Assembly: GCA_040877935.1 (NCBI GenBank)
Contig: JBBDNB010000004.1
Span: 1-43,348 of the forward strand
Reading direction: 5' to 3'
DNA: 43,348 nucleotides
From: Chitinophagales bacterium
GTDB taxonomy: Bacteria > Bacteroidota > Bacteroidia > Chitinophagales > CAIOSU01
The notes under the pieces are model-generated. The model was not told where the DNA came from and ran no database searches. It saw only the letters and a program-made list of their open reading frames with translations. How positions within the stretch are numbered: the first letter of the stretch is position 1; every line of letters starts with the position of its first letter. The position numbers and the translations under genes were made by a program. Positions 22,646 to 42,961 of the stretch are shown one piece after another.

Positions 22646-22677
22646 TTGAACTCAATACACATTTTTACCTATATTTG
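22646..22677 (+). promoter_or_regulatory. Promoter for the glycine-rich gene block
   Basis: TTG at 22646-22648 and TATATTTG at 22670-22677, spaced 21 bp, match the Bacteroidota consensus. The ATG follows 31 bp after the -7 box. This also rules out the longer reading that would begin with the TTG at 22646. Confidence 0.75.
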
Positions 22678-22708
22678 TAGGATATTGCTCGTAAAAAAAC
22701 ATCGTCAA

Positions 22709-24241
22709 ATGAAGTATTGCTTCCTCAATCTCAAGGTTGGATTGCTCTTTTTATTTACACTGCTTTTATCCCCTGAATTATTCAGTCAAATTAACAGAGG
22801 TAATGTAGGTATAGGAACTTTAACACCAGATTCTTCAGCAATTTTAGATTTAGAATCGACCGAAAAAGGTTTTTTACAGCCACGCATGAGTACGGCTGAG
22901 CGAGATTTAATCAATGATCCGGCAACAGGCCTGGCAATTTTCAATGTGGACGACAGCACACACCAATACTACAATGGCACTTGCTGGATCAATGTCTTCC
23001 AAAGAAACTGTGACGATTGTTTTTTCACTATTACGCCCAGCAGCATTGCCGATACCATTGACCGAACGCAAACCGATTCGATTACTATTACCCTCGATAT
23101 TGTGCAAAATACAGGAGCAGCTCAAAATATTGCACTTAACATTGTAAATGTATTGCCGCAGGGCATGTCAGCAAATTTTAGCCAAAACCCGGTTTTTTCT
23201 ACCGGATCCAGCGACCTGACCATTAAAGTAACTCCATTTACTCCCGATGGTTCCCACGCCATTATTATCCAGGCGCTTTGCGGCTCCAGCATCTATAATA
23301 TTGTTTACTCGCTATACTTGGAACCCTGCTATTACTTAGATGTGAATAACAACCAGTCAAATTATATAATGAGTGTGGACTTGTATACCACCTATCCGCA
23401 ATTGCTTTTGTCACCAAATGACCCGGTATGTGTGGTCAATGAAGTGCTTGCAGGCGTTTCCTTAGAAGGAACCAGCATTCCTGCCATACCATTTGTCCCT
23501 CCTGTTCCTCCAATACCCGCTTATTCTATGGGCCCAATTCCTACAGGCTCACGTGTAGCTATTGTAAACAATGGTCAAATTATAGGCGCAGGTGGAGATG
23601 GAGGAACAGCTACTGATCCCAATTTCGGCTATACAGGAGAAGGCTTTGATGGTGGCGATGCCATTCGAATTTCTGCCAATACATCCGTGCTGAACAATGG
23701 CTATATTTTTGGCGGTGGCGGTGGCGGTGGTGCCGTAGCATTTCAAATTGGCATTCCGCTCGGCCCTATCTTTTTCGGATTTTTGATCGGCTCCGGTGGC
23801 GGTGGTGGTGCCGGTGGCGGTGATGGCGGAAATATCCCCACGCTTGTCGGTATCCAGTTTTACTCTCAGGGATTGGATGGTTCTGATGGTATATTTGGTA
23901 CGCCTGGACAAGGTGGTATTTTGCAATTGCCCATTAATATTCAACAGGGGCCTGTTTCCATTACTATCAACCCCAATGTAAGAGGTGGAAATGGTGGTGC
24001 TTATGGATTTCCCGGAACTGCAGGACTATTCCAGGTTTCACTTTCAGCATCTATTGTTGTAAACATTCCGTTTATAGGCCCTATTACCATTCCGATAGTT
24101 ACCAATCTTAACATACCAATACCTCTTCCAATTCCCGCTGCAGGTGATGGTGGATATGCTGTTAAAAGAAACGGAAACCCGCTTAATCTAACCGATCAGG
24201 TGTATAATACTACTTTCCTGAAGGGTAGAGTGGGCAATTAA
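22709..24241 (+). CDS. Secreted glycine-rich surface protein
   Basis: A 510-aa exported protein. Signal peptide MKYCFLNLKVGLLFLFTLLL and on to FSQ. The N-terminal NVGIGTLTPDSSAILDLEST matches the GIGTxxP module common at the start of Bacteroidota surface and fibre-like proteins. The middle part (about 110-230) resembles a beta-sandwich repeat (FFTITPSSIADTIDRTQTDS). The C-terminal half is rich in Gly (several GGGGGGG runs, for instance FGGGGGGGAV) and in VGI/IPIPLPIPA stretches, like glycine-rich fibre tips. No T9SS tail is seen. The start is set at ATG 22709 because of the promoter directly upstream. A signal-less longer start is rejected. Confidence 0.75.
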   Translation: MKYCFLNLKVGLLFLFTLLLSPELFSQINRGNVGIGTLTPDSSAILDLESTEKGFLQPRMSTAERDLINDPATGLAIFNVDDSTHQYYNGTCWINVFQRNCDDCFFTITPSSIADTIDRTQTDSITITLDIVQNTGAAQNIALNIVNVLPQGMSANFSQNPVFSTGSSDLTIKVTPFTPDGSHAIIIQALCGSSIYNIVYSLYLEPCYYLDVNNNQSNYIMSVDLYTTYPQLLLSPNDPVCVVNEVLAGVSLEGTSIPAIPFVPPVPPIPAYSMGPIPTGSRVAIVNNGQIIGAGGDGGTATDPNFGYTGEGFDGGDAIRISANTSVLNNGYIFGGGGGGGAVAFQIGIPLGPIFFGFLIGSGGGGGAGGGDGGNIPTLVGIQFYSQGLDGSDGIFGTPGQGGILQLPINIQQGPVSITINPNVRGGNGGAYGFPGTAGLFQVSLSASIVVNIPFIGPITIPIVTNLNIPIPLPIPAAGDGGYAVKRNGNPLNLTDQVYNTTFLKGRVGN

Positions 24242-24261
24242 CCATTTAAAACAAATACACA

Positions 24262-24966
24262 ATGACACGATCAATATTAATTTTATGCGCCTTGTTTTTT
24301 GCTGGCATTTCGATTGCTCAAAAACCTTTTGAGGGCATTATTGACATGACTACTGTGAATAACGAAATTCAGGAAAAAGCCGATATCAAATGGTATATCA
24401 AAAATGGCAATCACCGCCTGGAATACTCAGGAACTAAAGCCGGAGAAAGCTACAGCTATATCTTTTTGATAGCTGCGGGCAACAACCTGATGCAGATGTT
24501 ATCTGATGCCGATGGAAAGAAAGTGGTTTATGAAATTCCACAAGATGCCATAACAAATAGCATTAAGCCCGGCTATGGTTCTGAAATCCAGAAGACAGAC
24601 GATACCAAACTGGTATCCGGTTATTCTGCCATAAAAATGAAAGTGGAATCCCCCGATAAAATTTCTACTGTATGGGTAAGTGATAAAACACCTATTAATA
24701 TGCATGATATGCCAGCTATTTTACTTTCCAGCAGTGTTTTGAAAAATTTAAAAGAAAAAGGCATCAATGCAATTCCCCTGGAAATCAACTCTGCAAACAC
24801 GGGCGGTAACTTGCTTTACTCGCAAAAAATCACTTCCATTAAAAAACAATCCGTTAGTGATGATAAATTTAAAGTACCTGCTGAGTACCAACCTTTGAAT
24901 AAAAATATGCAGGTACAGCCTGCTGATCCCAATCAAATGCAAAACAGCAATCCAAAAGGCAACTAA
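24262..24966 (+). CDS. Secreted DUF4412-like protein
   Basis: A 234-aa protein with signal peptide MTRSILILCALFFAGISIAQ. The mature region follows the DUF4412-like pattern (FEGIIDMTTVNNEIQEKADI, IKWYIKNGNHRLEYSG, PQDAITNSIKPGYGSEIQ), predicted as a beta-barrel-like periplasmic or outer-membrane-associated protein of unknown function. The C-terminus is a Gln/Asn-rich tail (PADPNQMQNSNPKGN). It starts 20 bp after the glycine-rich gene and ends 6 bp before the next, so an operon is likely. Confidence 0.75.
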   Translation: MTRSILILCALFFAGISIAQKPFEGIIDMTTVNNEIQEKADIKWYIKNGNHRLEYSGTKAGESYSYIFLIAAGNNLMQMLSDADGKKVVYEIPQDAITNSIKPGYGSEIQKTDDTKLVSGYSAIKMKVESPDKISTVWVSDKTPINMHDMPAILLSSSVLKNLKEKGINAIPLEINSANTGGNLLYSQKITSIKKQSVSDDKFKVPAEYQPLNKNMQVQPADPNQMQNSNPKGN

Positions 24967-24972
24967 ATTAGT

Positions 24973-26043
24973 ATGAAAAAACATTCAGTTCAAAGGGCTA
25001 CTCAAATTAGAATAGCCCTTTTTTTATTGCCAATACTATTGATTTTTGCGCAGTGCAGCAGAAAAATCCAGGACAAAAGCATCATACACCAAGGTGGGGA
25101 ATTGCGGATTTCAAAAAAGGAAAACAAACCTCCTCTAAACATCCATTTTTTTGGCGTAACCAATTTCTTTATAGAGCTGGAAGGCAAGGCTTTATTGACC
25201 GATCCATTTATTTCCAATCCCGTGAGCAAAAAAGTTGTTTTTGGAAAAATAGCTACGGACACGAGTATTGTCGATTCGTTTATAGCGGCTGTTGATTTGA
25301 AAAAAACGAGAATGGTCAGCATTGGACATGCGCATTACGATCACCTGATGGATTGGCCCTACATGAGCAACTTTGTGGAGCCCGATAAAGTGGTTTTTGC
25401 TGGAAGCGAAACGGCCGTAAATACCGTAGCGGCTTACAATCAGAAATTGGCAAAAGTGCAAAAGGTGAATGATTTGATGGGCAATATCGAGCAACCCGGG
25501 CAGTGGATTTACAGCATTGATAGCAGTATGCGCCTGATGGCTTTTGAGGCAGAACACCCCAGTCATTTTATGGGCATTACGCTCTACAGCGGACATTATC
25601 ACGAGGCATTGGAGGAAGCTCCCGTAAAAGCCAAACGCTGGAAAATGGGACAGCCTTTGAGTTATTTGGTAGATTTTTTGGATGAAGGAAAAATACAGTA
25701 CCGCATATTTATACAAACTTCCAATGGTGAAAAACCTGCTGGATATTTCCCCAAAGAAATGCTGATAAATCATCCCGTGGACATTGCATTTTTGTCAATA
25801 GCCCTAAAGGGTAAAAAGATCAGGGAATTGGAAGAAATGGTCAATTATATTGAGCCGCAATTGGTTTTTCTTGGTCATTGGGAAAATTTCATGCAGGAAA
25901 AAACCGCTCCCGTTCGGGCAGTAGCCAAATCCAATATTTCGAAGCACTGGATTTACATCAAGGAAAAATTCCCAGAACATCCTGAATTTGTGCTGCCCAT
26001 GCCGGGATCTGCTTATGTGGTAAACGGCTTAACCAAGGATTAA
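24973..26043 (+). CDS. Metallo-beta-lactamase-fold lipoprotein hydrolase
   Basis: A 356-aa protein with a lipoprotein signal ending at Cys28 (IFAQC). The metal-binding motif H-x-H-x-D-H is HAHYDH at residues 119-124, preceded by the beta strand MVSIGHA and ligand-like Asp77 in LLTDPF. Later ligands may be His185 region (AEHPSHFMG) and His in FLGHWENF. The pattern (NFFIELEGKALLTDPF) resembles UlaG/RomA-type phosphodiesterases or lactonases. It is anchored in a membrane facing the periplasm or surface. It lies 6 bp after the DUF4412-like gene and 79 bp before the alkaline phosphatase. Confidence 0.85.
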   Translation: MKKHSVQRATQIRIALFLLPILLIFAQCSRKIQDKSIIHQGGELRISKKENKPPLNIHFFGVTNFFIELEGKALLTDPFISNPVSKKVVFGKIATDTSIVDSFIAAVDLKKTRMVSIGHAHYDHLMDWPYMSNFVEPDKVVFAGSETAVNTVAAYNQKLAKVQKVNDLMGNIEQPGQWIYSIDSSMRLMAFEAEHPSHFMGITLYSGHYHEALEEAPVKAKRWKMGQPLSYLVDFLDEGKIQYRIFIQTSNGEKPAGYFPKEMLINHPVDIAFLSIALKGKKIRELEEMVNYIEPQLVFLGHWENFMQEKTAPVRAVAKSNISKHWIYIKEKFPEHPEFVLPMPGSAYVVNGLTKD

Positions 26044-30076: not shown

Positions 30077-32887
30077 TTACTTGATAAAATAAGTAAAGCC
30101 CAGACTGAATGTACGGCCAATATTGTAGGATTGGTAGGCGTATTCAGTGTCTTTGAAAGTGTAAACCAGTGCATAGTCCGGATCGATCAAATTATTGGCA
30201 TTTAAGCTGAGCGCAAAATGCTTTCCGATATTTTGACTGATGCTGAAATTAAGCGATGGCCTTGGTTTTTCGTACACATTGGGCGTTGCGCTAGGGATAA
30301 CAACTGCCAGGCGCGGACCGAAAATATTGAATGCCATATTCACATTGGTGCCTGTTTTGTCATTGTCGTAATTGATAAATGCATTGATGATATAAGGCGA
30401 TTGGCCAAACATGGGGCGAGTGGATTCAGCTTCGGGATTTAGGTTTCTAATATTGGCCAACTCGTCCTCTGCAATATCAACACGGGAATAGACATAGGTG
30501 AAGTTTCCACCTAGCGACAAATCTTGAAGTGCCTCGGAAATGAAGTTTAGGTTTTTGCGAAATTCAAGTTCAACACCAATCAACTGCGCACGATCTACAT
30601 TTCTGTAGTTCAACTCATCTGAATTGGGTGCCAATGGATTAAAGGCGCGCTCAATGGGGTTTTTGAAATCCTTGTAAAATACGGAGGCCGAAAATATTTC
30701 TCCGGGATTGGGATACATCTCCCAGCGCAAATCCACATTGTCGATCAAGGTACGCTGCAAATCTGCATTCCCCAGCAAGATGAAATCGCCAATAAAGGAG
30801 AAAGAGGCAAATGGTGCCAACTCCCTAAAAGTAGGTCGGGCCAAAGTTCTGTTGTAGGATGCGCGCAGGTTCATTTTCTCGCTCAATCCATAATTGAAAT
30901 TGGCCGATGGCAAGAAATCGGTATTGTTCAATTCGCCATTTTCTACATCCTCATCAAAGCTTTCGAGAAGAATATCGGTATGTTCCATGCGAACGCCCCC
31001 GCTGAATTTCAGGGTAGAAACCAAGGGCATGTCCACCATTACATAAGCCCCTGCTGTTTTTTCATAGGCATCGTAATTGTTTTTTGCCTCAAAAGCAGTT
31101 TGTGCATAAACACCCTTGTCGTTTTCTGGGCCAAACAATGAATCTGCTGCCAAATGGGTATCGGGATCTCCTGAATACGCATTGGTTTGACGAGCAAATC
31201 TGTATTGGTCTTCCCTAAAATCCCTGTTTTTATAAACATATGATCCGCCAAACTTAAATTTGGATTTTTGTCCGCCCCATTGATTGAAAGGCACTGTGAT
31301 ATTGAGCTTATTGTCCACATTCATTTCCTGCATTTCCCTGTAATAGCGCGTGGGCAATTGACTAACGGAAGGCTCTATACTGTGGAGCGTATCGCCATTG
31401 TTTACCCTAAATCCGCTGGTAAAAAAGCGCATATCGGGCTCATCCTGTGAGGAAACGGTGTAAGAGGATACCCAATCTACCGTAGTATTGTTTAGGTTTT
31501 TGAGCAAATGCTCGCCTTTTAACTGTGCGGCAAAAATGGATCGCTCCAAGAAGGTCAAAGAACGGGTTTGGTAGCGCAACCTAGGGTCGTCAATCAGCTT
31601 ACGGCCTTGCTGAAAACGAGCGGTTTTATCGGCACTTTGATTGTATAATACAGTGGCGCCAATTTTATTGTTGGAGTTGATTTTATAGTTGGTATTGAAC
31701 ATTCCGCCCCACAGAACGGATTCGGTAGAGGCTTCATCCGAAAGACTTAAATCGGCATTCAACCTGCGGGTTCTGTCGTAATCATCTATCAATACATATC
31801 TGCCGGATTCGCCATTGTCGTAGTAATCAAAGCTTCTTTTATAGGAAAGGGAAATATTGTATCCAATTGGGCGGTTGAACAATCTGGATTGATTTCCCAG
31901 GGCTAAGGAATGGCTGTGGTCCATAAAAGAACGCTGACGGCTGAAATCCATATTATTGTCAAAGGATTCTGTAGCTGCCCTCAATCGGTTGGCTTCCTCT
32001 TCACTCATACCTATACCATATGCTTGCAAATCGTTTAGCGCGGCTTCGGGTACATCCCTGCTGCCATCATCAATTCCCAAGGCATCTAAACTGCCGCCTT
32101 CGTAAGTCATAAAGTTTTTATTAAAAGAGGAATTGGTATTGTAGCCAAGCGAAGTGCTGAATTGTAAATTGAATTTTTCGGGAAAATCCTTGGTAACCAC
32201 ATTCAAGAGTCCGCCTGTAAAACTTGCGGGCAAATCGGGTGAAAAGGTTTTGTACACCAATAAATTATCCAGCGTATTGGATGGAAACAAATCCATTTGT
32301 ACCGAATTTCTATTGGGATCCAAGCCGGGCAGTTCGGCACCATTGAGCAGGGTTTTTGAATAGCGATCTCCCAAGCCGCGTATGTAAACATATTTTCCTT
32401 GTTCAACACTTACGCCCGTAACTCTACTTACGGCTGCTGCTGCATCGCTGTCTCCGTTTTTGGCAATTTGAGCAGATGATATTCCATCTAAAATAGAAGA
32501 GGATTTTCTTTGCAAGGTAATTACGGCAGATTCTGTATTGCGTACTTTTTTGGCCTCTACTACTACTTCTGAAACTTCAAGGGAGGCTTCGCCTAAATTG
32601 AAATCAATGACCGTTACTTCCCCATCTTTTACCTCTACTCCTGTTATGGTTTTTTTCTCATAGGAAATGAAGGAAGCTTCCAAATCATAAGTGCCAGTCT
32701 CTACATTTGAGATAGTAAAATTCCCATCTAAATCGGTAGTGGTACCCGTTGAAGTTCCTTTTATCAGCACATTGGTGCCAATCATTTCCTCGCCTGTTTC
32801 GGCATCGGTAACCCGCCCCCGTATAGTACCTTGGGCAAATACGAACTGCGTGTACAAAATGGCGAAAGCGAACAGAAGAATTTTCAT
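30077..32887 (-). CDS. TonB-dependent receptor with carboxypeptidase-regulatory-like domain
   Basis: A 936-aa outer-membrane receptor. Signal peptide MKILLFAFAILYTQFVFAQ; then GTIRGRVTDAETGEEMIGTN with IKGTSTGTTTDLDGNFTISN, the CarboxypepD_reg-like beta-sandwich (about 20-105). The plug domain reads ISSAQIAKNGDSDAAAAVSR, then YVYIRGLGDRYSKTLLNGAE, and the beta-barrel fills the rest, ending in RTFSLGFTYFIK with an aromatic C-terminus. The upstream lipoprotein gene on the same strand ends 166 bp away with a terminator between them. A receptor-plus-beta-helix-lipoprotein pair suggests import of one shared ligand; the ligand is not evident. Confidence 0.92.
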   Translation of the reverse strand: MKILLFAFAILYTQFVFAQGTIRGRVTDAETGEEMIGTNVLIKGTSTGTTTDLDGNFTISNVETGTYDLEASFISYEKKTITGVEVKDGEVTVIDFNLGEASLEVSEVVVEAKKVRNTESAVITLQRKSSSILDGISSAQIAKNGDSDAAAAVSRVTGVSVEQGKYVYIRGLGDRYSKTLLNGAELPGLDPNRNSVQMDLFPSNTLDNLLVYKTFSPDLPASFTGGLLNVVTKDFPEKFNLQFSTSLGYNTNSSFNKNFMTYEGGSLDALGIDDGSRDVPEAALNDLQAYGIGMSEEEANRLRAATESFDNNMDFSRQRSFMDHSHSLALGNQSRLFNRPIGYNISLSYKRSFDYYDNGESGRYVLIDDYDRTRRLNADLSLSDEASTESVLWGGMFNTNYKINSNNKIGATVLYNQSADKTARFQQGRKLIDDPRLRYQTRSLTFLERSIFAAQLKGEHLLKNLNNTTVDWVSSYTVSSQDEPDMRFFTSGFRVNNGDTLHSIEPSVSQLPTRYYREMQEMNVDNKLNITVPFNQWGGQKSKFKFGGSYVYKNRDFREDQYRFARQTNAYSGDPDTHLAADSLFGPENDKGVYAQTAFEAKNNYDAYEKTAGAYVMVDMPLVSTLKFSGGVRMEHTDILLESFDEDVENGELNNTDFLPSANFNYGLSEKMNLRASYNRTLARPTFRELAPFASFSFIGDFILLGNADLQRTLIDNVDLRWEMYPNPGEIFSASVFYKDFKNPIERAFNPLAPNSDELNYRNVDRAQLIGVELEFRKNLNFISEALQDLSLGGNFTYVYSRVDIAEDELANIRNLNPEAESTRPMFGQSPYIINAFINYDNDKTGTNVNMAFNIFGPRLAVVIPSATPNVYEKPRPSLNFSISQNIGKHFALSLNANNLIDPDYALVYTFKDTEYAYQSYNIGRTFSLGFTYFIK

Positions 32888-32988
32888 GAGTGATTAATTT
32901 TACTGCAAAAGTCCGCTCTAGTTCTTAAGGTATTTTAAAGCCAATATTAAGCTTGTGTTAAGGGGTGATGTGTGCACATTTTATTAAC

Positions 32989-33023
32989 AAAAAAAAAGAA
33001 AAGCAGTCCTTTTACAGACTGCT
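32989..33023 (-). terminator. Rho-independent terminator after the beta-helix lipoprotein gene
   Basis: On the minus strand, a hairpin with arms 33017-33023 and 33002-33008 (AGCAGTC/GACTGCT) is followed by a T-rich tract (plus-strand A-run 32989-32998). It begins about 30 bp after the lipoprotein stop. Transcription into the receptor would therefore need read-through or a second promoter. Confidence 0.7.
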
Positions 33024-33053
33024 CCTCCAAAACATGTTGAACTTAATACTTAC

Positions 33054-34466
33054 TTATTGATAACACTCATTATCTACTGATATGGTAAACAAATCAGCGG
33101 GTTGATCTCCAGCTCCGATATTGTGGAATACATTGTTTTCCAATTTCAAGCTTCCGTCTACAAATTGCTTGTAAGAATCTTGATCGCTGTCTTTCAACTC
33201 AATATCAATTCCCCTGCCATAGTTTACAAAAATGGAATTGTGGTATTCACCCCCTGCATTGTCCCTAAAGGTAATGGTTCTTGATCCAGAGTTTCCTACA
33301 GAAGTTACGTTGTAGAATTTAGGCGTAGAATATGGTTCTCCTGTTTCAGGATCGGTACCACCATCATGTTCACCACCTCTATCTGCATTTTCAGCAGATG
33401 GATCTTGGTAATTGATTACAAATTGAGTTTCACCTCTAAAACCTTCGTCATAATCCAAGGCATCATCGCCATTGTAGAGAGAGATCAAATATTTGGCATT
33501 TACAGTACCACCAAACCATTCGTAGCCATCATCATTACTACCTAAGCTTTCAATATATTCTATGGTGGTTCCGCTTCCAACTCCACCCATGGTCAAACCT
33601 TGGATTTCGTTTCCTGCACCAATATCAGTACCCGTGTGGCGAATAGAGACATAGCGCATGGTTCCAGAGCTGTGTCCATCGTCATTTCCACCATAAATAG
33701 CATCTGTTTCATTGGTGGGGATACCTTCAATGGCTGTTTCACCTGCACCGGAGTTCAATCTTGCTTTTCCTAGCAAAAGCACACCGCCCCAAAGTCCTCT
33801 TGTATCAGCAGTAGCTGATCCTTTTAAATTATCGTCTACTGAAGTGAAAATAATAGGCTCAGTAGCTGTTCCCTCAGCCATGATTTTTCCATTCCTTGAT
33901 ACAATCAAAGCAGTAGCACTAGAACCCTGACCTTTTTTCGCTTTTACAACTGTACCTGCCTCAATAGTTAAAGTAGCATTATTGGTTACGTAAATTCTAC
34001 CATCCAGTATATATACGTTGTCATTTGTGAAAGTATCATTGCTGGTAATATTGCTAGAAATAGTCATTTCTGGTTTTCCATCTACCATTGCAGAACGATT
34101 TTTATCTGTAGTACCTCCGGCAAGAATTTGCTCGAAAAATGACCAGCCTTCGTACCATTTGCTTCCGTTGGGATCAATAGCTCCGTAATAGTTTGTACTA
34201 ACAATAGAGCCCGTGCCCGAAGAAAAATTGCCTCCCGAGAGGCTAGGTGTAATGGAAGTAGGGGTAAAACCGGGGTCTTCCACTTTGTTTCCAGCAGAAG
34301 TAAAGTAATCGGCAAAATCCGCTTCGCCTTCAGCAAGTACGGGATCCAAACGCTCTTGAACTTCTTCGCATTCGGTTAAGTCCGGACCTTCGTCTTTTTT
34401 ACAAGCAGAGAAAAAAGCTGCAATGGCAAAAAAGACCAAAATAAATTGAATTGACAATGATTTCAT
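33054..34466 (-). CDS. Surface lipoprotein with right-handed beta-helix-like repeats
   Basis: A 470-aa lipoprotein; start at ATG 34466. Signal peptide MKSLSIQFILVFFAIAAFFS with lipobox Cys22, followed by KKDEGPD. Residues from about 130 form parallel-beta-helix-like coils (NVYILDGRIYVTNNATLTIE, AGTVVKAKKGQG, LWGGVLLLGKARLNSG, FYNVTSVGNSG). Asp- and Gly-rich loops (GGNDDGHSSG, YNGDDALDYDEG, DRGGEHDGGTDPETG) may bind calcium or another ion. No catalytic motif is recognised. It is encoded upstream of the receptor at 30077 and is probably its extracellular partner (inference from co-orientation). Confidence 0.8.
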   Translation of the reverse strand: MKSLSIQFILVFFAIAAFFSACKKDEGPDLTECEEVQERLDPVLAEGEADFADYFTSAGNKVEDPGFTPTSITPSLSGGNFSSGTGSIVSTNYYGAIDPNGSKWYEGWSFFEQILAGGTTDKNRSAMVDGKPEMTISSNITSNDTFTNDNVYILDGRIYVTNNATLTIEAGTVVKAKKGQGSSATALIVSRNGKIMAEGTATEPIIFTSVDDNLKGSATADTRGLWGGVLLLGKARLNSGAGETAIEGIPTNETDAIYGGNDDGHSSGTMRYVSIRHTGTDIGAGNEIQGLTMGGVGSGTTIEYIESLGSNDDGYEWFGGTVNAKYLISLYNGDDALDYDEGFRGETQFVINYQDPSAENADRGGEHDGGTDPETGEPYSTPKFYNVTSVGNSGSRTITFRDNAGGEYHNSIFVNYGRGIDIELKDSDQDSYKQFVDGSLKLENNVFHNIGAGDQPADLFTISVDNECYQ

Positions 34467-34505
34467 GTTGTGTAATTTTGGTTTTGAATTAAAATGATGG
34501 TGCAA

Positions 34506-34881: not shown

Positions 34882-34911
34882 TTGTTAGTTTTTTAAAAAA
34901 AATTAACTTTG
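34882..34911 (+). promoter_or_regulatory. Promoter for the first tandem TonB receptor
   Basis: TTG at 34882-34884 and TAACTTTG at 34904-34911 with a 19-bp spacer match the Bacteroidota consensus. The start codon follows 54 bp after the -7 box. Confidence 0.75.
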
Positions 34912-34965
34912 CCGAATCCTGAAAACAGGTTCTTGAATCAAAATTAATCACCACAAACAAGACAG

Positions 34966-37524
34966 ATGAAAAGCTTGATGAGTTTTATTGGAATTGTTTT
35001 ATACATTTCCATCTTAAGTGCCTACGCACAAAATGGTACAATTAAGGGAACTGTAACTGATGCAGCATCAGATGAGCCCATTCCATTTTTAAATGTTTAT
35101 TTAGAATCTGACAACACTTTGGGTGCCACTACGGATTTCAGCGGAGAATATTCCCTGTCCGTTCCTGCCGGTACACATGAGGTTGTTTATTCTTCTTTGG
35201 AATACGGAAAAATTAAAAGAACAGTAAGTGTAGAAGCAGGTGAAACCACTGTCGAAAATGTCAATATAGGAAAGAAAGATGTTGAAGTACAAACCATTAC
35301 CGTAAAAACAGACAAGTTTGAAAAACCTATTGAAGACATCATCACCTCACTGGAAGTAATTAAGCCCAATGTATTGGAGAACAAAGGTTCAACTGATGTT
35401 ACTTCTGCCCTGGAGCAAGCGCCCGGACTCACCATTGTAGATGGCGAAGCCCAGTTGAGAGGCGGAAGTGGCTATAGCTTTGGTGCCGGTAGTCGTGTAA
35501 TGATCCTGGTGGATGATATGCCTTTGCTTTCAGGAGATGCAGGAAGACCGAGTTGGAGTTATATCCCCATTGAAAACATAGAACAAATTGAGGTGACTAA
35601 AGGTGCTTCTTCTGTACTTTACGGTTCTGCGGCATTAAATGGCGCCATCAACATCCGGACGGCTTATCCTGAAAACGAGCCCAAAACACGTATCAATTTC
35701 ATCAGTGGAATGTATGATTCTCCTCAGAAAAAAGAAGCCAAATGGTGGGAAGGGAATACCCCTTTTTATACAGGCCTTAGTTTTTTACACAGTAGAAAAG
35801 TAAATAAAGCTTTTAGTTTTGTTGTGAGTGGTAATCTTTATAGAGAGAATGGTTTTATTGGCCCTACTCCAACAGAACTTTATGAAGACAGCCTTGCCTT
35901 TACTACACAAAAAGATATGTATTTTACTGAAAGTGGAGATACGGTAGGTTTTATGCCCCGTGGGACTGAAGTCGTGAATACAGATAGTATTGACAAAAAT
36001 GAGGTGAACCCTAGTAATTATGAAAAAAGATTTAGGGTAAATTTCAATACAACCTATAAAAATCAGAAAATAAAAGGATTGTCCTATGGCATGAACGGTA
36101 GCTTACAATATTCAAAATCTACCAGCACACTGCTGTGGTTAAACAATGAAGAAGGTTTATACCGCGCATTTCCCGGTGCTTTTACCACTACAGTGCAAAC
36201 TCAATTCAACTTTGACCCCTATATTCACTATTACGATAGCAAAGGCAACAAACACACATTAAACACCCGTGTATATTATCTGGACAATAATAATGACAAT
36301 AATCAGGCGAATAAGAATACGGTTTTATATGGTGAGTACCGCTACATGAAACGATTTAAAAACATTCCTGACTTTAGAATATCTACTGGTCTTGTTTCTA
36401 CTTATGTCTATAGTGAATCTGAGCTGTTTAGGGGTATTACTGATGATCCAAGCACCAATAGAACCTCACTGAATGTAGGTGCTTATGTACAGCTTGAGAA
36501 GAAATTATTTGGTCGATTGAATTTATTGGGAGGAGCTCGTTGGGAATACTTCAAAATTGGAGATACAGAAGACAATCAACCCGTATTTCGAGCCGGCATG
36601 AATTACAAACTTGGAAAAGCTACTATTTTCAGAACTTCTTTTGGACAGGGATTCCGTTTCCCAACTATGGCTGAACGATACATCAACACAACTGTAGGTG
36701 GTATTCCAATTATTCCAAATCCTGAACTGGAAGCAGAAAAAAGCTGGAACTTTGAGCTGGCTGTAAAACAAGGCGTAAAAATCGGGAAATTCATGGGGTA
36801 TGTTGATTTAGCCGGTTTCCTGTCTCAGTATAATAATTATGTAGAGTTTATTGCCGCTCAATGGACAAGTTTTGACCCCAGTAAATCCAATTTGATTGAA
36901 GCATCGGGATTAGGGTTTAAATCCGTAAATACCGGTGATGCCCGAGTAAGCGGTATCGATTTCTCTATACTTGGTGGAGGAGAGTTTACTGAAAACTTTG
37001 GTATGAACATACTTGCAGGTTATACTTATTCCAGACCAATCTCCCTCACACCAAATTATGTATTTGGTCAGGAAAGAGAAGGACAGGGAAAGGATCTTAG
37101 CTACAACAATACCAGTCTTAAAGCTTTAGATGAATTCAGTGATGATTTCACCAATCCGGGAGGAGGCGATTACAATCTTTTGAAATATCGCTATGAGCAT
37201 TTGATAAAAGCTGATATTGAATTCAATATTCATGCTTTTTCAATTGGTGGAAGTTTCAGGTTTTACAGCTATATGAAAAATGTGGATGAATTCTTTTACC
37301 GCCCTATTCTTAAGGATTTTGTTGGCTTAGATGCACGAGGATACAGAGAAGCTAATCGCGGCCCTGAATATGTATTTGATTTCCGTGTTGCTTATACTAT
37401 TAAGGAAGCTAGCAGAGTTTCATTTATTGTAAACAACGCTTTTAACAGAGAATATGCACTAAGACCGCTCTCAATAAATGCACCGAGAAGTTTTGCATTG
37501 CAATACACATTGACATTACAATAA
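34966..37524 (+). CDS. TonB-dependent receptor (tandem copy 1)
   Basis: An 852-aa outer-membrane receptor. Signal peptide MKSLMSFIGIVLYISILSAY; CarboxypepD_reg-like domain (NGTIKGTVTDAASDEPIPFL, about 22-105); plug with TSALEQAPGLTIVDGEAQLR, GSGYSFGAGSRVMILVDDMP and IEQIEVTKGASSVLYGSAAL; and a barrel ending in PRSFALQYTLTLQ. It is paralogous to the receptor at 37695: both plug and distal barrel align (GQGFRFPTMAERYIN here, GMGYRYPSIAERFVR there). It has its own promoter and terminator. Substrate unknown; its position next to the ceramidase-type operon suggests a lipid-like or amide ligand (inference). Confidence 0.92.
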   Translation: MKSLMSFIGIVLYISILSAYAQNGTIKGTVTDAASDEPIPFLNVYLESDNTLGATTDFSGEYSLSVPAGTHEVVYSSLEYGKIKRTVSVEAGETTVENVNIGKKDVEVQTITVKTDKFEKPIEDIITSLEVIKPNVLENKGSTDVTSALEQAPGLTIVDGEAQLRGGSGYSFGAGSRVMILVDDMPLLSGDAGRPSWSYIPIENIEQIEVTKGASSVLYGSAALNGAINIRTAYPENEPKTRINFISGMYDSPQKKEAKWWEGNTPFYTGLSFLHSRKVNKAFSFVVSGNLYRENGFIGPTPTELYEDSLAFTTQKDMYFTESGDTVGFMPRGTEVVNTDSIDKNEVNPSNYEKRFRVNFNTTYKNQKIKGLSYGMNGSLQYSKSTSTLLWLNNEEGLYRAFPGAFTTTVQTQFNFDPYIHYYDSKGNKHTLNTRVYYLDNNNDNNQANKNTVLYGEYRYMKRFKNIPDFRISTGLVSTYVYSESELFRGITDDPSTNRTSLNVGAYVQLEKKLFGRLNLLGGARWEYFKIGDTEDNQPVFRAGMNYKLGKATIFRTSFGQGFRFPTMAERYINTTVGGIPIIPNPELEAEKSWNFELAVKQGVKIGKFMGYVDLAGFLSQYNNYVEFIAAQWTSFDPSKSNLIEASGLGFKSVNTGDARVSGIDFSILGGGEFTENFGMNILAGYTYSRPISLTPNYVFGQEREGQGKDLSYNNTSLKALDEFSDDFTNPGGGDYNLLKYRYEHLIKADIEFNIHAFSIGGSFRFYSYMKNVDEFFYRPILKDFVGLDARGYREANRGPEYVFDFRVAYTIKEASRVSFIVNNAFNREYALRPLSINAPRSFALQYTLTLQ

Positions 37525-37550
37525 AACAAGAAAATAAAAATCAGATTAAA

Positions 37551-37580
37551 AAGGGTGTTGAGCATGTAATCAACACCCTT
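37551..37580 (+). terminator. Terminator of the first tandem receptor
   Basis: Perfect 11-bp stem, arms 37551-37561 (AAGGGTGTTGA) and 37570-37580, eight-base loop, followed by a T-rich stretch. It begins 27 bp after the stop codon. Confidence 0.75.
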
Positions 37581-37607
37581 TGTTATTAAAAATAAGTTTT
37601 TTTGAAC

Positions 37608-37636
37608 TTGTGATTCAGTAAAATAAGGTAATTTTG
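37608..37636 (+). promoter_or_regulatory. Promoter of the second receptor / ceramidase-type operon
   Basis: TTG at 37608-37610 and TAATTTTG (TAnnTTTG) at 37629-37636, spaced 18 bp. The receptor start codon is 58 bp downstream. With the terminator at 37551-37580 this makes the second receptor and its two enzymes a separate transcription unit. Confidence 0.7.
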
Positions 37637-37694
37637 ACCTTAAAATAAGATTGCCTTAGCACAATACTTAATAAGCAATCTAAAACAGCTTTTT

Positions 37695-40025
37695 ATGAAA
37701 ATATTGAGTATCCTGTTAATCTTAATCCTTTCCTGCAATATATTGTTTGCCCAAAATGCAGTTGTAAAAGGCACTGTAAAAGACCGCGAAAGCAGTGAAA
37801 TGTTGTTTGGGGTAAATATCATTAGCAATACAGGAACTGGCACCACAACCGATATGGATGGAAACTATGAGCTCGAGTTGGAACCCGGAGATTACACCTT
37901 AACCTGGAAATTTCTGGGTTATGAATCAGTAAAAAGAAAAGTAAGCTTAGATGCCGGTGAAAGCAAATCGATCAACATTCAATTGAGCGTAAAAGCAGAA
38001 GATCTGGGACTTGTAACTGTAACAGGCAGTAAATACGAGAAAAAATTTGGCGAAGAGTCTGTTTCAATGGAAGTATTGACCCCGCAATTTATAGAAAATA
38101 CCAACTCGGTAACCTTAGATGAAGCATTGGACAAAGTCCCCGGAGTAAATATGGTGGGCGAAAACATCAATATCCGGGGTGGAGCAGGCTATTCTTCAGG
38201 AGCGGGAAGTCGCGTACTTATGTTGCTTGACGGGATGCCCTACCTGACCCCACATGATGGTTCTGTAGAATTCAATTCACTACCCATAGAAAACATCAAA
38301 CAAGTAGAAGTGATCAAAGGAGCATCTTCAGCACTTTATGGTTCTTCTGCCCTCAATGGAATTGTAAATGTGATTACCAAAAACCCGGGCAATGAACCGG
38401 AAACGGAGATCACTACTTTTGGTGGAATTTATGAAAATCCATTCAAAGGCGATAATAAACAATATTACTGGTCAGATAAAAGCCGCTTTTTTGGCGGTTT
38501 TTCTTTTGTGCACAGAAGAAAAATAAAAAAGAGATTTGACCTGACAGTGAGTGGCGGGATGAACAAAGACCAAAGCTACCTGTACAAAGATGAGAAAAAC
38601 CGCATGCGTCTCAACCTCAAAACAAGATTCAGACCAAAGAAAATCGAAAGATTAACTGTTGGTTTAAATGCGGGTATCTCCAGAAGCTGGGGCGATTTCT
38701 TTTTCCTTTGGGCCGGTTATGATACGATCAAAGGTCCATCAGGAAATCGCGTGAAAATTGCCCATAAAGATTCATTGCTCTATACCCAACCAGAACAAAA
38801 TGCCGCCAGGCAAAATATCATCCCAATCTATATAGATCCATTTATTACTTATTTCGATAAAAAAGACAATAAACACAGCCTAAAAGGCAGACATTATTAT
38901 CAGGATACACAAAACGGCACAACAGAAAAAACCAATGCCCACCTGCTCTTTGGAGAATACACATTCCACAGTACATTAAATGCTTTTGGCAAACTCAAAG
39001 TAGATTTCGTTACCGGAGTCAATGCTTCGTATTCCACTATTGAAAGTGAAATATTCGGTGCACGGAAATCGAAAAACGGGGCTGCATTTCTACAAATAGA
39101 TACAAAACTGTTCGACAAGCTCACCATTACAGGCGGGGTAAGAACCGAACTCTTTAAACTCGATACACTTGAACTTGTGTTTAAACCAATTAGCCGCTTT
39201 GGAATGAACTATCAAATTGCTGAAGCTACCTATTTAAGAAGCTCCTATGGAATGGGTTACCGCTACCCAAGTATAGCCGAACGCTTTGTAAGAGTTCAAC
39301 GGGCCGGGCAATATGTTGTGCCCAACGAAAACCTTTTACCGGAAAGCAGTTGGTCATTTGAAATGGGCTTAAAACAAGGTTTTAAAATCTCAAACTGGTT
39401 TGGCTATTTAGACTTTGCCGGATTTGTAACACAGTACAAAAACATGATGGAATTCAGGCAGGCACCACAAGATGTAGTGAATGAATATTGGCCAAGAGAC
39501 GAATATCCCGGAGTAGCTTTTGCTTTCTGGTCGGATAATGTAACTAATGCTCGTATCTCTGGTATTGAGTTATCCGCATTGGGGCAGGGAAAAATATTTG
39601 GTATTCCCACAAACTTCCTGGTAGGTTACACCTACATGGTACCTATTAACCTCGATAAAAGAGATCAGATAGAAGGCTCTGTATTTTCAGACAATTCAGC
39701 CGACCTAAACTTTAGATTCAGACATACTGCCAAAGCAGATATAGAATCCACTTACAAAAAAGTAACGCTTGGCTTTACAGGTTATGTCAACAGCTTTATG
39801 GAAAACATAGACCCGCTGATACAATTGGCCCAGGACATTAATAAATTCCGCAGGGAAAATGAAGGCCCTACTTACAGAGTAGATGTCCGCATAGGCTATA
39901 ATTTTACCGATGATGCTAAAGTGGCATTAATTGCAAAAAACGTAACTGCCAATCAATATTCCATTCGCCCCGGATATATCGAGGCACCAAGAAATTATAC
40001 ATTACAGGTATCTTATCAATTTTAA
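37695..40025 (+). CDS. TonB-dependent receptor (tandem copy 2), first gene of the ceramidase-type operon
   Basis: A 776-aa outer-membrane receptor. Signal peptide MKILSILLILILSCNILFAQ; CarboxypepD_reg-like domain (AVVKGTVKDRESSEMLFGVN); plug with LDEALDKVPGVNMVGENINI, GAGYSSGAGSRVLMLLDGMP and IKQVEVIKGASSALYGSSAL; barrel ending in PRNYTLQVSYQF with a terminal Phe. It is shorter than copy 1 by about 76 residues, the difference lying mainly in the barrel loops. The ceramidase-type gene starts 3 bp after its stop, so translation is coupled. The receptor probably imports the substrate, or a precursor, of the downstream enzymes (inference). Confidence 0.93.
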   Translation: MKILSILLILILSCNILFAQNAVVKGTVKDRESSEMLFGVNIISNTGTGTTTDMDGNYELELEPGDYTLTWKFLGYESVKRKVSLDAGESKSINIQLSVKAEDLGLVTVTGSKYEKKFGEESVSMEVLTPQFIENTNSVTLDEALDKVPGVNMVGENINIRGGAGYSSGAGSRVLMLLDGMPYLTPHDGSVEFNSLPIENIKQVEVIKGASSALYGSSALNGIVNVITKNPGNEPETEITTFGGIYENPFKGDNKQYYWSDKSRFFGGFSFVHRRKIKKRFDLTVSGGMNKDQSYLYKDEKNRMRLNLKTRFRPKKIERLTVGLNAGISRSWGDFFFLWAGYDTIKGPSGNRVKIAHKDSLLYTQPEQNAARQNIIPIYIDPFITYFDKKDNKHSLKGRHYYQDTQNGTTEKTNAHLLFGEYTFHSTLNAFGKLKVDFVTGVNASYSTIESEIFGARKSKNGAAFLQIDTKLFDKLTITGGVRTELFKLDTLELVFKPISRFGMNYQIAEATYLRSSYGMGYRYPSIAERFVRVQRAGQYVVPNENLLPESSWSFEMGLKQGFKISNWFGYLDFAGFVTQYKNMMEFRQAPQDVVNEYWPRDEYPGVAFAFWSDNVTNARISGIELSALGQGKIFGIPTNFLVGYTYMVPINLDKRDQIEGSVFSDNSADLNFRFRHTAKADIESTYKKVTLGFTGYVNSFMENIDPLIQLAQDINKFRRENEGPTYRVDVRIGYNFTDDAKVALIAKNVTANQYSIRPGYIEAPRNYTLQVSYQF

Positions 40026-40028
40026 AAA

Positions 40029-41765
40029 ATGTATCAGGTAGGCACAGCTAAAGTCAACATCACGCCCAATATCAAAGATGTGGGTATGATGGGCTATGGC
40101 ATGTGGTTCAATATTGTAGAAGATACTGCTACTCCCCTGTTTGCAAGGGCTTATGTAGTAGAAGATAGCACAAGCAAGAAAAAATTCGCCTTTGTATGTG
40201 CTGAATTTGCTTTTATTACAACCTCAATTAAAAGAGGAGTGATGAAAATCCTTAATACCAAGCACGAGCGATTAAATTTTACCAATGAAAATGTGCTGCT
40301 CACCGCACAGCACACGCACAGTGCTCCGGGCGGATTTTCCCATTATGGACTTTATAATATGAGTATTCCCGGTTTCGTACCTGAAGTTTACGATTGCTAT
40401 GTTGAGGGAATAGCAAAAGCCATAGTTGAGGCCTCTGAAAAGATGAAACCCGCTAGAATTAAACTCAAAAAAGGAAGCTTTGCCGAAGATGTAAATATTG
40501 CCTTCAACCGCTCCATCAATGCCTACAATCGCAATCCTGAAGTAAAGACACCACTTGGAAAGCATGAAACACACAAAGCGGTAAACAGGGAAATGACCTT
40601 ATTGCAATTTAAAGACGAGCAAGGCCAAGCCATTGGCAGTATCAACTGGTTTGGACTGCATTGCACCAGTATTTCAAATGATAACAAAAAAATATGCAGC
40701 GACAATAAAGGCTATGCTGCACAATACACTGAAGACGCATTTGCCAAAGACAATCCCGATTACAATGCCATTTTTGCACAGAATTATTGTGGTGACATAA
40801 GTCCCAATTATATCTGGGACAGAAAAAAAGGCTGGACGCGCGGCTCTTTTGAAGATGATTATAAAAGCGCTCAATACAGCGGAAAACTCCAATCTGACAA
40901 AGCGCTGGAAATCATTCGTTCTGAAAAAAGTGAAAAATTGATCAAGGGTGAAATTGACAGCGCAATGATCTATGTCAATTTTGCTGAAGTCTATCCCTAC
41001 CCCGAATTTACAGGAGGTAAAACAGATGTTCGTACAGGCCCCTCCTGCCATGGCGTGGCATTTTTAAAAGGAACAGCAGAAGGTCCCGGAATGCCTGTTC
41101 CTTTAGCTTTTGCCGCAAACAGGATTGTAGATGTCATAAAAGTTTATGAAATGCTGCGACAAGCATTTGTAGATGAAAAAGAGCGAGAAAGAATCCGGCT
41201 TAAATACAAAGTACAGGGTGTTAAAAAAGTAATGATAGAATCCGGGGAAAGAAAAATGCTGGGAACCTGGAATATCAAAAGACTGGTAATTCCCGATATA
41301 GCAGACCCGAGCATAAGAATCTTTAAAGAACATCACAGAAAAGGCGCATTGGAAGAAAAACCCTGGACTCCACAGGTACTGCCCTTGCAAATTATTATTC
41401 TGGGAAATATTGCCTTGGTCTCCATTCCCGGGGAAATTACTACCATTGCCGCACAGCGACTGGAAAAGACCATTCTTGATGTACTGAAACAAAGAGGTGT
41501 TGAGGAAATCATCTTAAATTCCTACGCCAATTCCTACTGTGGCTATATTACTACACAGGAAGAATACCAGGAACAATGCTATGAAGGTGGGCACACCGTT
41601 TTTGGAGAATATACTTTGGCCGCTTTTCAAAGCAAATACCAGGATCTTGCCAAAGAAATGATTAAAAAACCTGAACTTAGAAAAACCAAACACACAATAA
41701 AGCCGGTGAAATTCACTCCCGAAGAATTGGCACTGCGCAGCTACGAGAAGAAACTGATTTCATGA
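40029..41765 (+). CDS. Neutral/alkaline ceramidase-type N-acyl amidase, lacking signal peptide and C-terminal domain
   Basis: A 578-aa zinc amidase of the neutral ceramidase N-terminal-domain family, which cleaves the amide bond of ceramide to a long-chain base and a fatty acid. Conserved features: HTHS with His95/His97 (AQHTHSAPGG), NRSINAYNRNP at 160-170, His211 (WFGLHCTSI), the nucleophile hexapeptide GDISPN with Ser258, the Glu in VSIPGEITTIAA and the Tyr in NSYCGYITTQEEY. Known enzymes are secreted and have a C-terminal Ig-like domain. This one starts straight at the catalytic fold (MYQVGTAKVNITPNIKDVGM), with only 3 bp to the upstream gene, and ends soon after the catalytic domain. A cytoplasmic enzyme is therefore predicted. 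It overlaps the next gene by ATGA. Confidence 0.88.
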   Translation: MYQVGTAKVNITPNIKDVGMMGYGMWFNIVEDTATPLFARAYVVEDSTSKKKFAFVCAEFAFITTSIKRGVMKILNTKHERLNFTNENVLLTAQHTHSAPGGFSHYGLYNMSIPGFVPEVYDCYVEGIAKAIVEASEKMKPARIKLKKGSFAEDVNIAFNRSINAYNRNPEVKTPLGKHETHKAVNREMTLLQFKDEQGQAIGSINWFGLHCTSISNDNKKICSDNKGYAAQYTEDAFAKDNPDYNAIFAQNYCGDISPNYIWDRKKGWTRGSFEDDYKSAQYSGKLQSDKALEIIRSEKSEKLIKGEIDSAMIYVNFAEVYPYPEFTGGKTDVRTGPSCHGVAFLKGTAEGPGMPVPLAFAANRIVDVIKVYEMLRQAFVDEKERERIRLKYKVQGVKKVMIESGERKMLGTWNIKRLVIPDIADPSIRIFKEHHRKGALEEKPWTPQVLPLQIIILGNIALVSIPGEITTIAAQRLEKTILDVLKQRGVEEIILNSYANSYCGYITTQEEYQEQCYEGGHTVFGEYTLAAFQSKYQDLAKEMIKKPELRKTKHTIKPVKFTPEELALRSYEKKLIS

Positions 41766-42961
41766 GCTCCTTAAACAGAGATTACAATTATTACCAAAAA
41801 ATACTTGAAAGCGAAACCCTGCCCCTTGCTTTCGTTGATTTAGATCTTCTGGAAGCCAATCTTTCAGATTTGAAAAAGAGAGCAGGCAATAAGCAAATTC
41901 GCATTGCTTCTAAATCTGTACGCATATTCGAGGTCATTAAAAAAGCACTGGATTTTGATCCCATATACCAGGGCATTATGTGCTTTTCCAATGCCGAGGC
42001 CGTATGGCTGAGCCAAAAAGGCATGGACGATTTACTGGTCGGCTATCCCGGTTTGCAAGAGGAATATGTTCGCGCAGTTTGCGGTGAATTGAAAAAAGGC
42101 AAGAAGATTTACCTGATGATAGATTTGCCGGAGCACATTGAATATTTCAATAAAATTGGCAAAGAAGAGGGCGTTCAGATTCCGCTTTGTATAGATGTGG
42201 ACATGAGCTCGGTTTATCCCGGACTGCGCTTTGGGGTTTGGCGCTCATCTGTTAATGATCAATCGGGCGTGGAAAACCTTTTGAGCATGTTGGACAAAAA
42301 CCCCAATGTAGCCATCAAGGGGCTGATGGGTTATGAAGCTGCCATAGCTGGCATGGGCGATAATTTCAAAGGGAAATTGGCGCAAAATTTAATCGTACGC
42401 TTTTTAAAAAACCGCTCTGCAAAAGAAATTGCCGAAAGGCGCGGCAATTGTGTGAAAGCCCTTAAAGATTTCGGTTGCCAACTGGATTTTGTAAATGGAG
42501 GCGGAACGGGCAGCATGGAATGGACCAGAGCCGAAGATGCTGTTACGGAAATTACGGTTGGTTCAGGACTTTTCAATTCTACCTTGTTTGACAATTATAG
42601 CAATTTCAAGCACCATCCCGCAGCAGCTTATGCCATGGAAATAGTGCGCAAACCGGGCAAGGATATTTTTACGGCACATGGTGGAGGATATACCGCCTCG
42701 GGAGCCATTGGCAAGGACAAGGAAGCGCAAATCTATTTACCAAAAGAAGCGGCACTTATTCCACAGGAAGGAGCCGGAGAGGTACAAACGCCTTTTAAAT
42801 ATTCGGGAAACCTACAGCTCAAATTAGGCCAGCCTGTATTTATGCGCCACAGCAAAGCCGGAGAATTGTTCGAGCGATTTAAGGAAGTCGCATTGATCAA
42901 GGATGGGAAAATTATTGGCAAAATACTAAGTTATAGAGGTGAGGGGCAGTGTTTTGTTTAG
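41762..42961 (+). CDS. PLP-dependent amino-acid deaminase/aldolase (alanine-racemase-fold type III)
   Basis: A 399-aa PLP enzyme of the D-threonine-aldolase / D-serine-dehydratase-like group with an alanine-racemase N-terminal barrel. Lys51 in RIASKSVR is the likely Schiff-base lysine. LPLAFVDLDLLEANL is the conserved first strand and helix, PLCIDVDMSSVYPGLRFGVW and LDFVNGGGTGSMEW follow in the barrel (the GGGTGS loop binds phosphate), and the C-terminal beta domain carries the metal-type residues of this group (FTAHGGGYTASG; FMRHSKAGELFERF). Its start overlaps the ceramidase stop by ATGA, so the two products are made in step. It might act on the amine released by the upstream amidase (inference). 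Confidence 0.85.
   Translation: MSSLNRDYNYYQKILESETLPLAFVDLDLLEANLSDLKKRAGNKQIRIASKSVRIFEVIKKALDFDPIYQGIMCFSNAEAVWLSQKGMDDLLVGYPGLQEEYVRAVCGELKKGKKIYLMIDLPEHIEYFNKIGKEEGVQIPLCIDVDMSSVYPGLRFGVWRSSVNDQSGVENLLSMLDKNPNVAIKGLMGYEAAIAGMGDNFKGKLAQNLIVRFLKNRSAKEIAERRGNCVKALKDFGCQLDFVNGGGTGSMEWTRAEDAVTEITVGSGLFNSTLFDNYSNFKHHPAAAYAMEIVRKPGKDIFTAHGGGYTASGAIGKDKEAQIYLPKEAALIPQEGAGEVQTPFKYSGNLQLKLGQPVFMRHSKAGELFERFKEVALIKDGKIIGKILSYRGEGQCFV

Follow-up and report, generated by a model that had tools for sequence, protein, structure and literature searches.

What is taken up and broken down by a locus in which two TonB-dependent receptors precede a ceramidase-type amidase and a pyridoxal 5′-phosphate (PLP) enzyme? 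The question is raised by a 43,348-nucleotide stretch of DNA from a Chitinophagales bacterium (GenBank assembly GCA_040877935.1, contig JBBDNB010000004.1), here called the window, which is the entire contig C4 of its genome assembly. An earlier sequence-only reading had proposed that an N-acyl lipid is imported, hydrolyzed in the cytosol, and its amine part processed by the PLP enzyme. We favor, with moderate confidence, a more specific answer: the locus serves the uptake and breakdown of an N-acylated 2-amino-1,3-diol lipid, of which ceramide or dihydroceramide is the likeliest. Open reading frames and Pfam matches bear out the gene layout first described, including a gap of 3 bp between receptor 2 and the amidase and an ATGA overlap (genomes, contigs, and loci are cited below by our G, C, and L labels).

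34966..37524, + strand: TonB-dependent receptor 1, 852 aa, with a hydrophobic N terminus, CarboxypepD_reg, plug, and barrel
37695..40025, + strand: TonB-dependent receptor 2, 776 aa, at the head of the presumed operon
40029..41765, + strand: zinc amidase of the neutral ceramidase family (PF04734), 578 aa, with no signal peptide and no C-terminal domain
41762..42961, + strand: fold-type III PLP enzyme of the D-threonine aldolase/D-3-hydroxyaspartate aldolase superfamily, 399 aa, proposed to be a D-3-hydroxy-amino-acid aldolase
41762..41765, + strand: ATGA stop/start overlap of the amidase and PLP genes

The amidase is a leaderless relative of neutral ceramidases

The window amidase matches Pfam PF04734 (Ceramidase_alk) with 369.8 bits (cutoff, 32.1) and misses the NCBIfam neutral ceramidase equivalog cutoff (255.6 versus 1200 bits). 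No other PF04734 gene is present in the window genome. A penicillin-amidase family gene (window positions 14330 to 16405; PF01804, 409.7 bits) is a second possible N-acyl amidase in the window.

The predicted structure of the amidase (predicted local distance difference test [pLDDT] score, 89.7) aligns with the Pseudomonas aeruginosa ceramidase PaCD, or CerN (2zws), with a Z score of 47.0 and a root mean square deviation of 2.2 over 475 residues at 31% identity, and with human neutral ceramidase (4wgk) with a Z score of 45.2. Beyond these two neutral ceramidases the next fold match reaches a Z score of only 3.8, and the solved relatives found by sequence are again two, both neutral ceramidases. 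Among 27 amidase frames examined from 76 amidase-positive genomes, H95, H211, E469, and Y506 are invariant and align with H97, H204, E411, and Y448 of PaCD, the His, His, Glu, and Tyr that we take to be the zinc ligands of PaCD-type neutral ceramidases. At the catalytic-serine position, 13 of the 27 frames, the window among them, have Ser and 14 have Thr.

The likeness to PaCD and the human enzyme thus lies in the fold, the zinc ligands, and the catalytic-serine position, whereas the window amidase differs in its 28 to 31% identity, its lack of a signal peptide and of a C-terminal domain, and the Ser/Thr alternation across its homologues. Model residues 1 to 575 align to residues 4 to 511 of the 630-residue PaCD chain, which leaves no C-terminal domain. 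The window amidase begins at the catalytic domain, and a Met lies 3 to 5 residues before a conserved glycine in all 27 frames; if that Met is the start, there is no room for a signal peptide, and the cytosolic location first proposed for the amidase holds. Judging by family, fold, and active-site residues, the enzyme would hydrolyze a ceramide-like N-acyl lipid in the cytosol, cutting the amide bond to yield a fatty acid and a free sphingoid base.

The amidase and PLP genes co-occur, and receptors of one cluster adjoin them

In a phylum-wide search at E ≤ 1e-20, the PLP enzyme was found in 2 of 395 genomes, the window's own included. Because this is too rare for neighborhood statistics, we surveyed 348 genomes of the order Chitinophagales at the same threshold; the statistics are uncorrected for kinship. 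Of these genomes, 48 have the PLP enzyme and 76 have the amidase; 38 carry the two together (Fisher p ~1e-20). All 6 other genomes of the window family that were searched have the PLP enzyme at 57 to 62% identity with the amidase directly upstream, and the ATGA overlap is kept in 6 of the 7 family genomes (the window and 5 of its 6 relatives; the exception is G002).

In 11 genomes, the amidase and PLP genes share a contig and are no more than 1.4 kb apart, namely, the 7 of the family, G018, G659, G677, and G027. Outside the family, this amounts to 4 of 41 PLP-positive genomes, with the two genes directly adjacent in G018, G659, and G677 and an ALO-family oxidase gene between them in G027. Adjacency is therefore rare beyond the window family, which by the measure that the sequence-only reading set for itself counts against it, although co-occurrence is strong (38 of 48) and many assemblies are fragmented, which bears on the adjacency counts.

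Neighborhoods were read around hand-picked loci, 27 of the amidase and 37 of the window-type PLP enzyme, some of them cut by contig ends; named contigs supplied 8 of the PLP loci. Both window receptors have CarboxypepD_reg, plug, and barrel, with plug and barrel above the Pfam cutoff. Two receptors precede the amidase in all 5 window-family relatives with enough flank; in G002, the second receptor frame upstream of the amidase is short. Overall, a receptor of the window cluster immediately precedes the amidase in 11 of the 27 amidase loci (window included), 4 of them without an adjoining PLP gene (L152, L154, L162, and L163), and the remaining amidase loci of the 27 have no receptor of this cluster next door. 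A receptor of this cluster also lies directly upstream of the PLP gene, with no amidase, in 4 of the 37 PLP loci (L037, L143, L144, and L145). The window genome holds a third receptor of the same type (on C48; 39% identity). Immediately before the locus, window positions 30077 to 34505 encode, on the other strand, a further TonB receptor and a protein of 483 aa that begins like a lipoprotein. From their family and linkage, the two receptors of the locus would carry the lipid across the outer membrane.

If the receptors were instead neighbors with another task, the amidase and the PLP enzyme could recycle an endogenous sphingolipid or sulfonolipid. Both enzymes are leaderless, and the window genome has an alpha-oxoamine synthase gene (G000:C48:222330-223583; L054 and L165) beside a cysteate-synthase-like gene, as in sulfonolipid synthesis, both below the NCBIfam cutoffs. 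However, this sulfonolipid-type synthase (E ≤ 1e-90), found in 240 of the 348 genomes, occurs in only 12 of the 76 amidase-positive and 14 of the 48 PLP-positive genomes (counted by eye; serine palmitoyltransferase proper falls outside this count), so that producers of such a lipid rarely have the amidase. The synthase was not found in 5 of the 7 window-family genomes, which keep the block, and in several families a member of the receptor cluster stands next to the amidase or the PLP gene. We thus consider turnover of the organism's own lipid unlikely.

Two types of oxidase accompany the PLP enzyme

Under import of a ceramide-like lipid, the next question is what happens to the freed base. Beside the PLP gene of several related genomes lies a flavin adenine dinucleotide (FAD) oxidase of the ALO family (PF04030). 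We defined close ALO as a match of at least 350 bits, a limit set after seeing a gap between 387.7 and 274.7 bits, and counted the split match of G462 once. Close ALO is present in 30 of the 348 genomes, 25 of which carry the window-type PLP enzyme, and 47 of the 48 PLP genomes have the amidase or close ALO. The PLP and close ALO genes lie within 400 bp in 7 genomes (G677, G462, G033, G027, G536, G691, and G545) and within 2 kb in 2 more; the order is amidase-PLP-ALO in G677 and PLP-ALO-amidase in G027.

Family f19 has a different arrangement, in which an aldehyde dehydrogenase gene follows the PLP gene, directly or one gene on, in four loci (L037, L143, L144, and L145); a fifth PLP locus of this family, L038, has no such gene. 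The order in G448 (L143) is receptor-PLP-aldehyde dehydrogenase-GMC oxidoreductase-small subunit, and in G471 it is PLP-aldehyde dehydrogenase-GMC-subunit. With the G448 GMC oxidase as the query, we searched 80 chosen genomes: all 48 with the PLP enzyme, all 5 with close ALO and no window-type PLP enzyme, 17 of the 38 with the amidase only, and 10 with none of these. Close matches comprise G448 itself and 19 genomes at 50 to 76% identity; 6 further genomes match at only 25 to 28%. Close GMC was found in 20 of the 23 PLP genomes without close ALO, including the window genome, and in none of the others (0/25 with PLP enzyme and close ALO, 0/5 with close ALO and no window-type PLP enzyme, 0/17 with amidase only, and 0/10 others). 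One or the other close oxidase is present in 45 of the 48 PLP genomes, and none of the 48 has both. G659 (GMC) and G677 (ALO) belong to one genus and differ in oxidase partner. On a quick PLP tree of 42 of the 48 genomes and 3 actinobacteria, with 18 of 42 inner branches open, the fewest partner changes is 3, two rows without a close oxidase being left out of the count.

The window genome has no close ALO, only one of 30% identity on another contig. Its C43 cluster encodes a GMC oxidase (61% identity; G000:C43:96183-97619), a small subunit, and an aldehyde dehydrogenase (65%). Among 11 GMC regions fetched, the aldehyde dehydrogenase gene lies beside GMC in 7 and, elsewhere, within one gene of the PLP gene in 3 (G024, G457, and G466); in G002, it was seen neither beside GMC nor near the PLP gene. 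Linkage and mutual exclusion suggest that the C1 alcohol of the base would be oxidized to a carboxylate by an oxidase encoded elsewhere in the genome, here the C43 GMC oxidase with its small subunit and the neighboring aldehyde dehydrogenase, and in related genomes an ALO-type FAD oxidase.

These partners bear on another candidate, N-acyl capnine, from which the amidase would free capnine for direct cleavage by the PLP enzyme to taurine and a fatty aldehyde, in the manner of sphingosine-1-phosphate lyase. Capnine carries a sulfonate at C1, on which a linked alcohol oxidase would be pointless, yet 45 of 48 PLP genomes have a close oxidase. We regard this route as very unlikely, even though the window organism may be able to make capnine, which has been described as an analogue of sphingosine-1-phosphate (PMC9304779).

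The PLP enzyme resembles D-3-hydroxy-amino-acid aldolases

The PLP enzyme matches Pfam Ala_racemase_N with 33.5 bits (cutoff, 24.1) and misses the NCBIfam BhcC equivalog cutoff (44.7 versus 690 bits); its PLP lysine, K51, is invariant in 28 of 28 sequences. The best fold matches of its model (pLDDT, 91.7) are the D-3-hydroxyaspartate aldolase BhcC (6qkb) and three D-threonine aldolases (7yqa, 7dib, and 4v15), with Z scores of 36.6 to 37.4, followed by D-3-hydroxyaspartate dehydratase (34.5 to 34.7) and D-serine dehydratase (31 to 32). In a profile search, the best 9 of 10 matches are type III enzymes of the D-3-hydroxy-amino-acid/D-serine group, and the tenth, 7pl2 (E 0.007), is unrelated to type III enzymes. 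The window enzyme shares the fold and the PLP lysine with the four aldolases; it differs in its 15 to 18% identity and in carrying other residues at the H-x-[C/D] metal pair.

Sphinganine occurs naturally in the 2S,3R configuration. By our own reasoning, a carboxylate at C1 changes the priority order at C2, so that C1-oxidized sphinganine is 2R,3R and belongs to the D series; one would therefore expect it to be handled by a member of the D-threonine aldolase group and not by an L-threonine aldolase. After oxidation, the sphingoid base would be a (2R,3R)-2-amino-3-hydroxy fatty acid, a D-amino acid of the kind that type III aldolases act on. The PLP enzyme, which we propose to be a D-3-hydroxy-amino-acid aldolase, would split it into glycine and a fatty aldehyde, and aldehyde dehydrogenase would convert the aldehyde to a fatty acid.

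The locus parallels the sphingosine genes of Pseudomonas

The sequence-only reading knew of no pathway with this arrangement. That statement is only partly right, because it overlooked the parallel with cerN-sphA-sphBCD of P. aeruginosa as well as the oxidase and aldehyde dehydrogenase accompanying the PLP enzyme. The ceramidase gene cerN, the predicted porin gene sphA, and sphBCD are described as one sphingosine-responsive SphR regulon, with the gene order sphB, sphC, sphD, sphA, sphR (PMC3900636). In a P. aeruginosa record, we found the order cytochrome c5, D-arabinono-1,4-lactone oxidase, DSD1-family PLP enzyme, transporter, sphR, argB; since the two orders fit, SphC is the ALO-family oxidase and SphD the type III PLP enzyme. 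The same cytochrome c-ALO-DSD1 order occurs in Ruegeria pomeroyi. The P. aeruginosa record (L177; NZ_CP070468.1), 93 kb long and filed as a plasmid, has sphR-sphA-sphBCD among the housekeeping genes argB, pyrE, rph, and gmk and is probably a piece of chromosome. According to PMC11893366, sphC and sphB are required and sphD is dispensable, the product of sphingosine conversion in Pseudomonas is unknown, and direct action of SphB and SphC on sphingosine is unsettled.

Both systems have an amidase of the ceramidase family, a protein for passage through the outer membrane, a flavin oxidase, and a type III PLP enzyme, and they share the proposed order of steps. In Pseudomonas, the ceramidase is secreted, SphC is exported by twin-arginine translocation and is thought to be served by the cytochrome c SphB, and SphA is a predicted porin (PMC3900636, PMC5150637, PMC11893366). 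In contrast, the window amidase has no leader, nor, by eye, do the related ALO and GMC oxidases; TonB receptors replace the porin; GMC and aldehyde dehydrogenase replace close ALO in the window genome; and the PLP enzyme is of a distant subfamily. The locus would thus work like CerN-SphA-SphBCD, with apparent import in place of secretion, and by the tests made is not a member of that system.

The two PLP types also exchange. Among the 30 close-ALO genomes, 24 have only the window type, 5 have only the SphD type, and 1 (G717) has both. In the 5 without the window type, the SphD relative, at 43 to 48% identity, adjoins the ALO gene in G007 and G463 and lies elsewhere in G533, G548, and G617; in G717 it adjoins ALO as well. 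Covering the genomes other than 10 with amidase only, the search found 7 SphD relatives at 43 to 48% and 5 more at 32 to 35% (G457, G481, G486, G493, and G507). The window genome yielded no SphD orthologue, its sole match being the window PLP gene itself. Nothing argues better for a shared role of the window-type enzyme and SphD than this exchange of distant PLP types at one step. In G501, an ALO gene that falls just below the gap in scores (36%, 274.7 bits) adjoins an SphD relative (43%), and the genome also has close GMC.

Outside the Bacteroidota, an actinobacterial "amino acid deaminase/aldolase" of the same PLP subfamily (35 to 39% identity) adjoins a D-arabinono-1,4-lactone oxidase or lies one gene from it. 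Unlike the window locus, the 13- to 15-kb stretches read around this pair hold no ceramidase, and that of the Tsukamurella plasmid is ~147 kb away. The two genes share 4 bp in Tsukamurella and Arthrobacter (L173 and L174), where NCS2/SLC23 permeases are encoded nearby and another substrate may be involved. Burkholderia relatives, at 46 to 48% identity, are in stretches without annotation.

These pairs lend something to the idea that the locus imports an N-acylated compound of another kind (an N-acyl D-3-hydroxy amino acid, a signal, or a peptide-like molecule, for example) and that the PLP enzyme acts on it with no oxidation beforehand. Because the PLP-ALO pair occurs with the permeases just named or, in Mycobacterium riyadhense, with an M28-family hydrolase, it is not tied to ceramidase everywhere and may serve a different substrate in actinobacteria; moreover, no member of the amidase group with a tested substrate turned up in the searches made. 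On the other hand, an alcohol oxidase would be superfluous for a free amino acid, and the only solved amidase relatives found are ceramidases. We judge this idea improbable. Neither N-acyl capnine nor N-acyl amino acids offer a C1 alcohol to the linked oxidases, and both are therefore disfavored as the main substrate.

Evidence against import and degradation of a ceramide-type lipid

Several observations weigh against the answer that we favor. Two TonB receptors are no proof of a lipid cargo. In half of the amidase genomes (38/76) there is no window-type PLP enzyme, and close GMC was absent from all 17 genomes tested from that half, so the amidase also works without the pathway. Three PLP-positive genomes, G020 (57% complete), G481, and G494, have neither close oxidase. 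When the ALO limit is relaxed to E ≤ 1e-20, matches appear in 79 genomes, among them 9 of the 20 with close GMC, one of which is the window genome; the exclusion between ALO and GMC is thus limited to the close ALO subfamily. The window PLP enzyme is only 21% identical to SphD, and where one BhcC protein has GHCDPT and one DSD1 protein has PHCDPT, it has RHSKAGE (SphD has RPTQSE). The H-x-[C/D] pair in the C-terminal domain, to which we presume a metal-binding role, is therefore absent, and the chemistry of the window enzyme may differ. Taken together, the lipid uptake, cytosolic amide hydrolysis, and PLP processing first proposed are consistent with most of the comparative tests, for a substrate that is putative.

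In the open literature, we found no paper joining ceramidase, TonB-dependent, and Bacteroidota, and none joining sphingosine degradation, alditol oxidase, and aldolase in bacteria, although a description elsewhere is possible; "D-threonine aldolase" is absent among the sphingosine and ceramidase matches listed.

Control signals and neighboring genes

Three candidate control signals lie near the receptor genes.

34904..34911, + strand: TAACTTTG, Bacteroidota-type -7 box upstream of receptor 1
37550..37581, + strand: inverted repeat with a 12-bp stem between receptors 1 and 2, read by eye, a possible weak terminator
37629..37636, + strand: TAATTTTG, Bacteroidota-type -7 box upstream of receptor 2

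Both boxes fit TAnnTTTG, the Bacteroidota-type -7 box consensus; they are no proof of function, and the + strand of the window holds 26 such boxes in total, one upstream of each receptor. The promoter and terminator that had been assigned to receptor 1 fare differently: the box at 34904 agrees with the promoter, whereas the inverted repeat was not among the predictions of a terminator scan.

Downstream of the PLP gene, 5 family relatives have a gene for a 249- to 286-aa protein; we set it and the genes beyond aside, since they do not recur beside the PLP gene outside the family. Elsewhere in the window, an MBL-fold protein (24973 to 26043) is followed by an alkaline phosphatase; a homologue lies just downstream of the amidase in G027 (L040), a single case. 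Positions 22646 to 24966 encode a protein of 531 aa and one with DUF4412; in a Saprospiraceae contig (L022), homologues of the two are neighbors, two genes from the PLP gene and on the other strand.

Implications for Bacteroidota

Exchange patterns from independent genomes point to the same two steps, C1 oxidation and then cleavage of a D-3-hydroxy amino acid. They raise the possibility, which we hold tentatively and with somewhat more doubt than belief, that a group of Bacteroidota feeds on the sphingolipids of other organisms: intact lipid would be imported by TonB receptors and deacylated in the cytosol, and the base would yield glycine and a fatty acid by way of a D-3-hydroxy amino acid, with C1 oxidation by interchangeable, unrelated modules (ALO, or GMC with aldehyde dehydrogenase) and the PLP step by one of two distant subfamilies. 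If true, this would give a role in the use of a carbon source to TonB receptors and leaderless ceramidase-family proteins that are without an assigned function.

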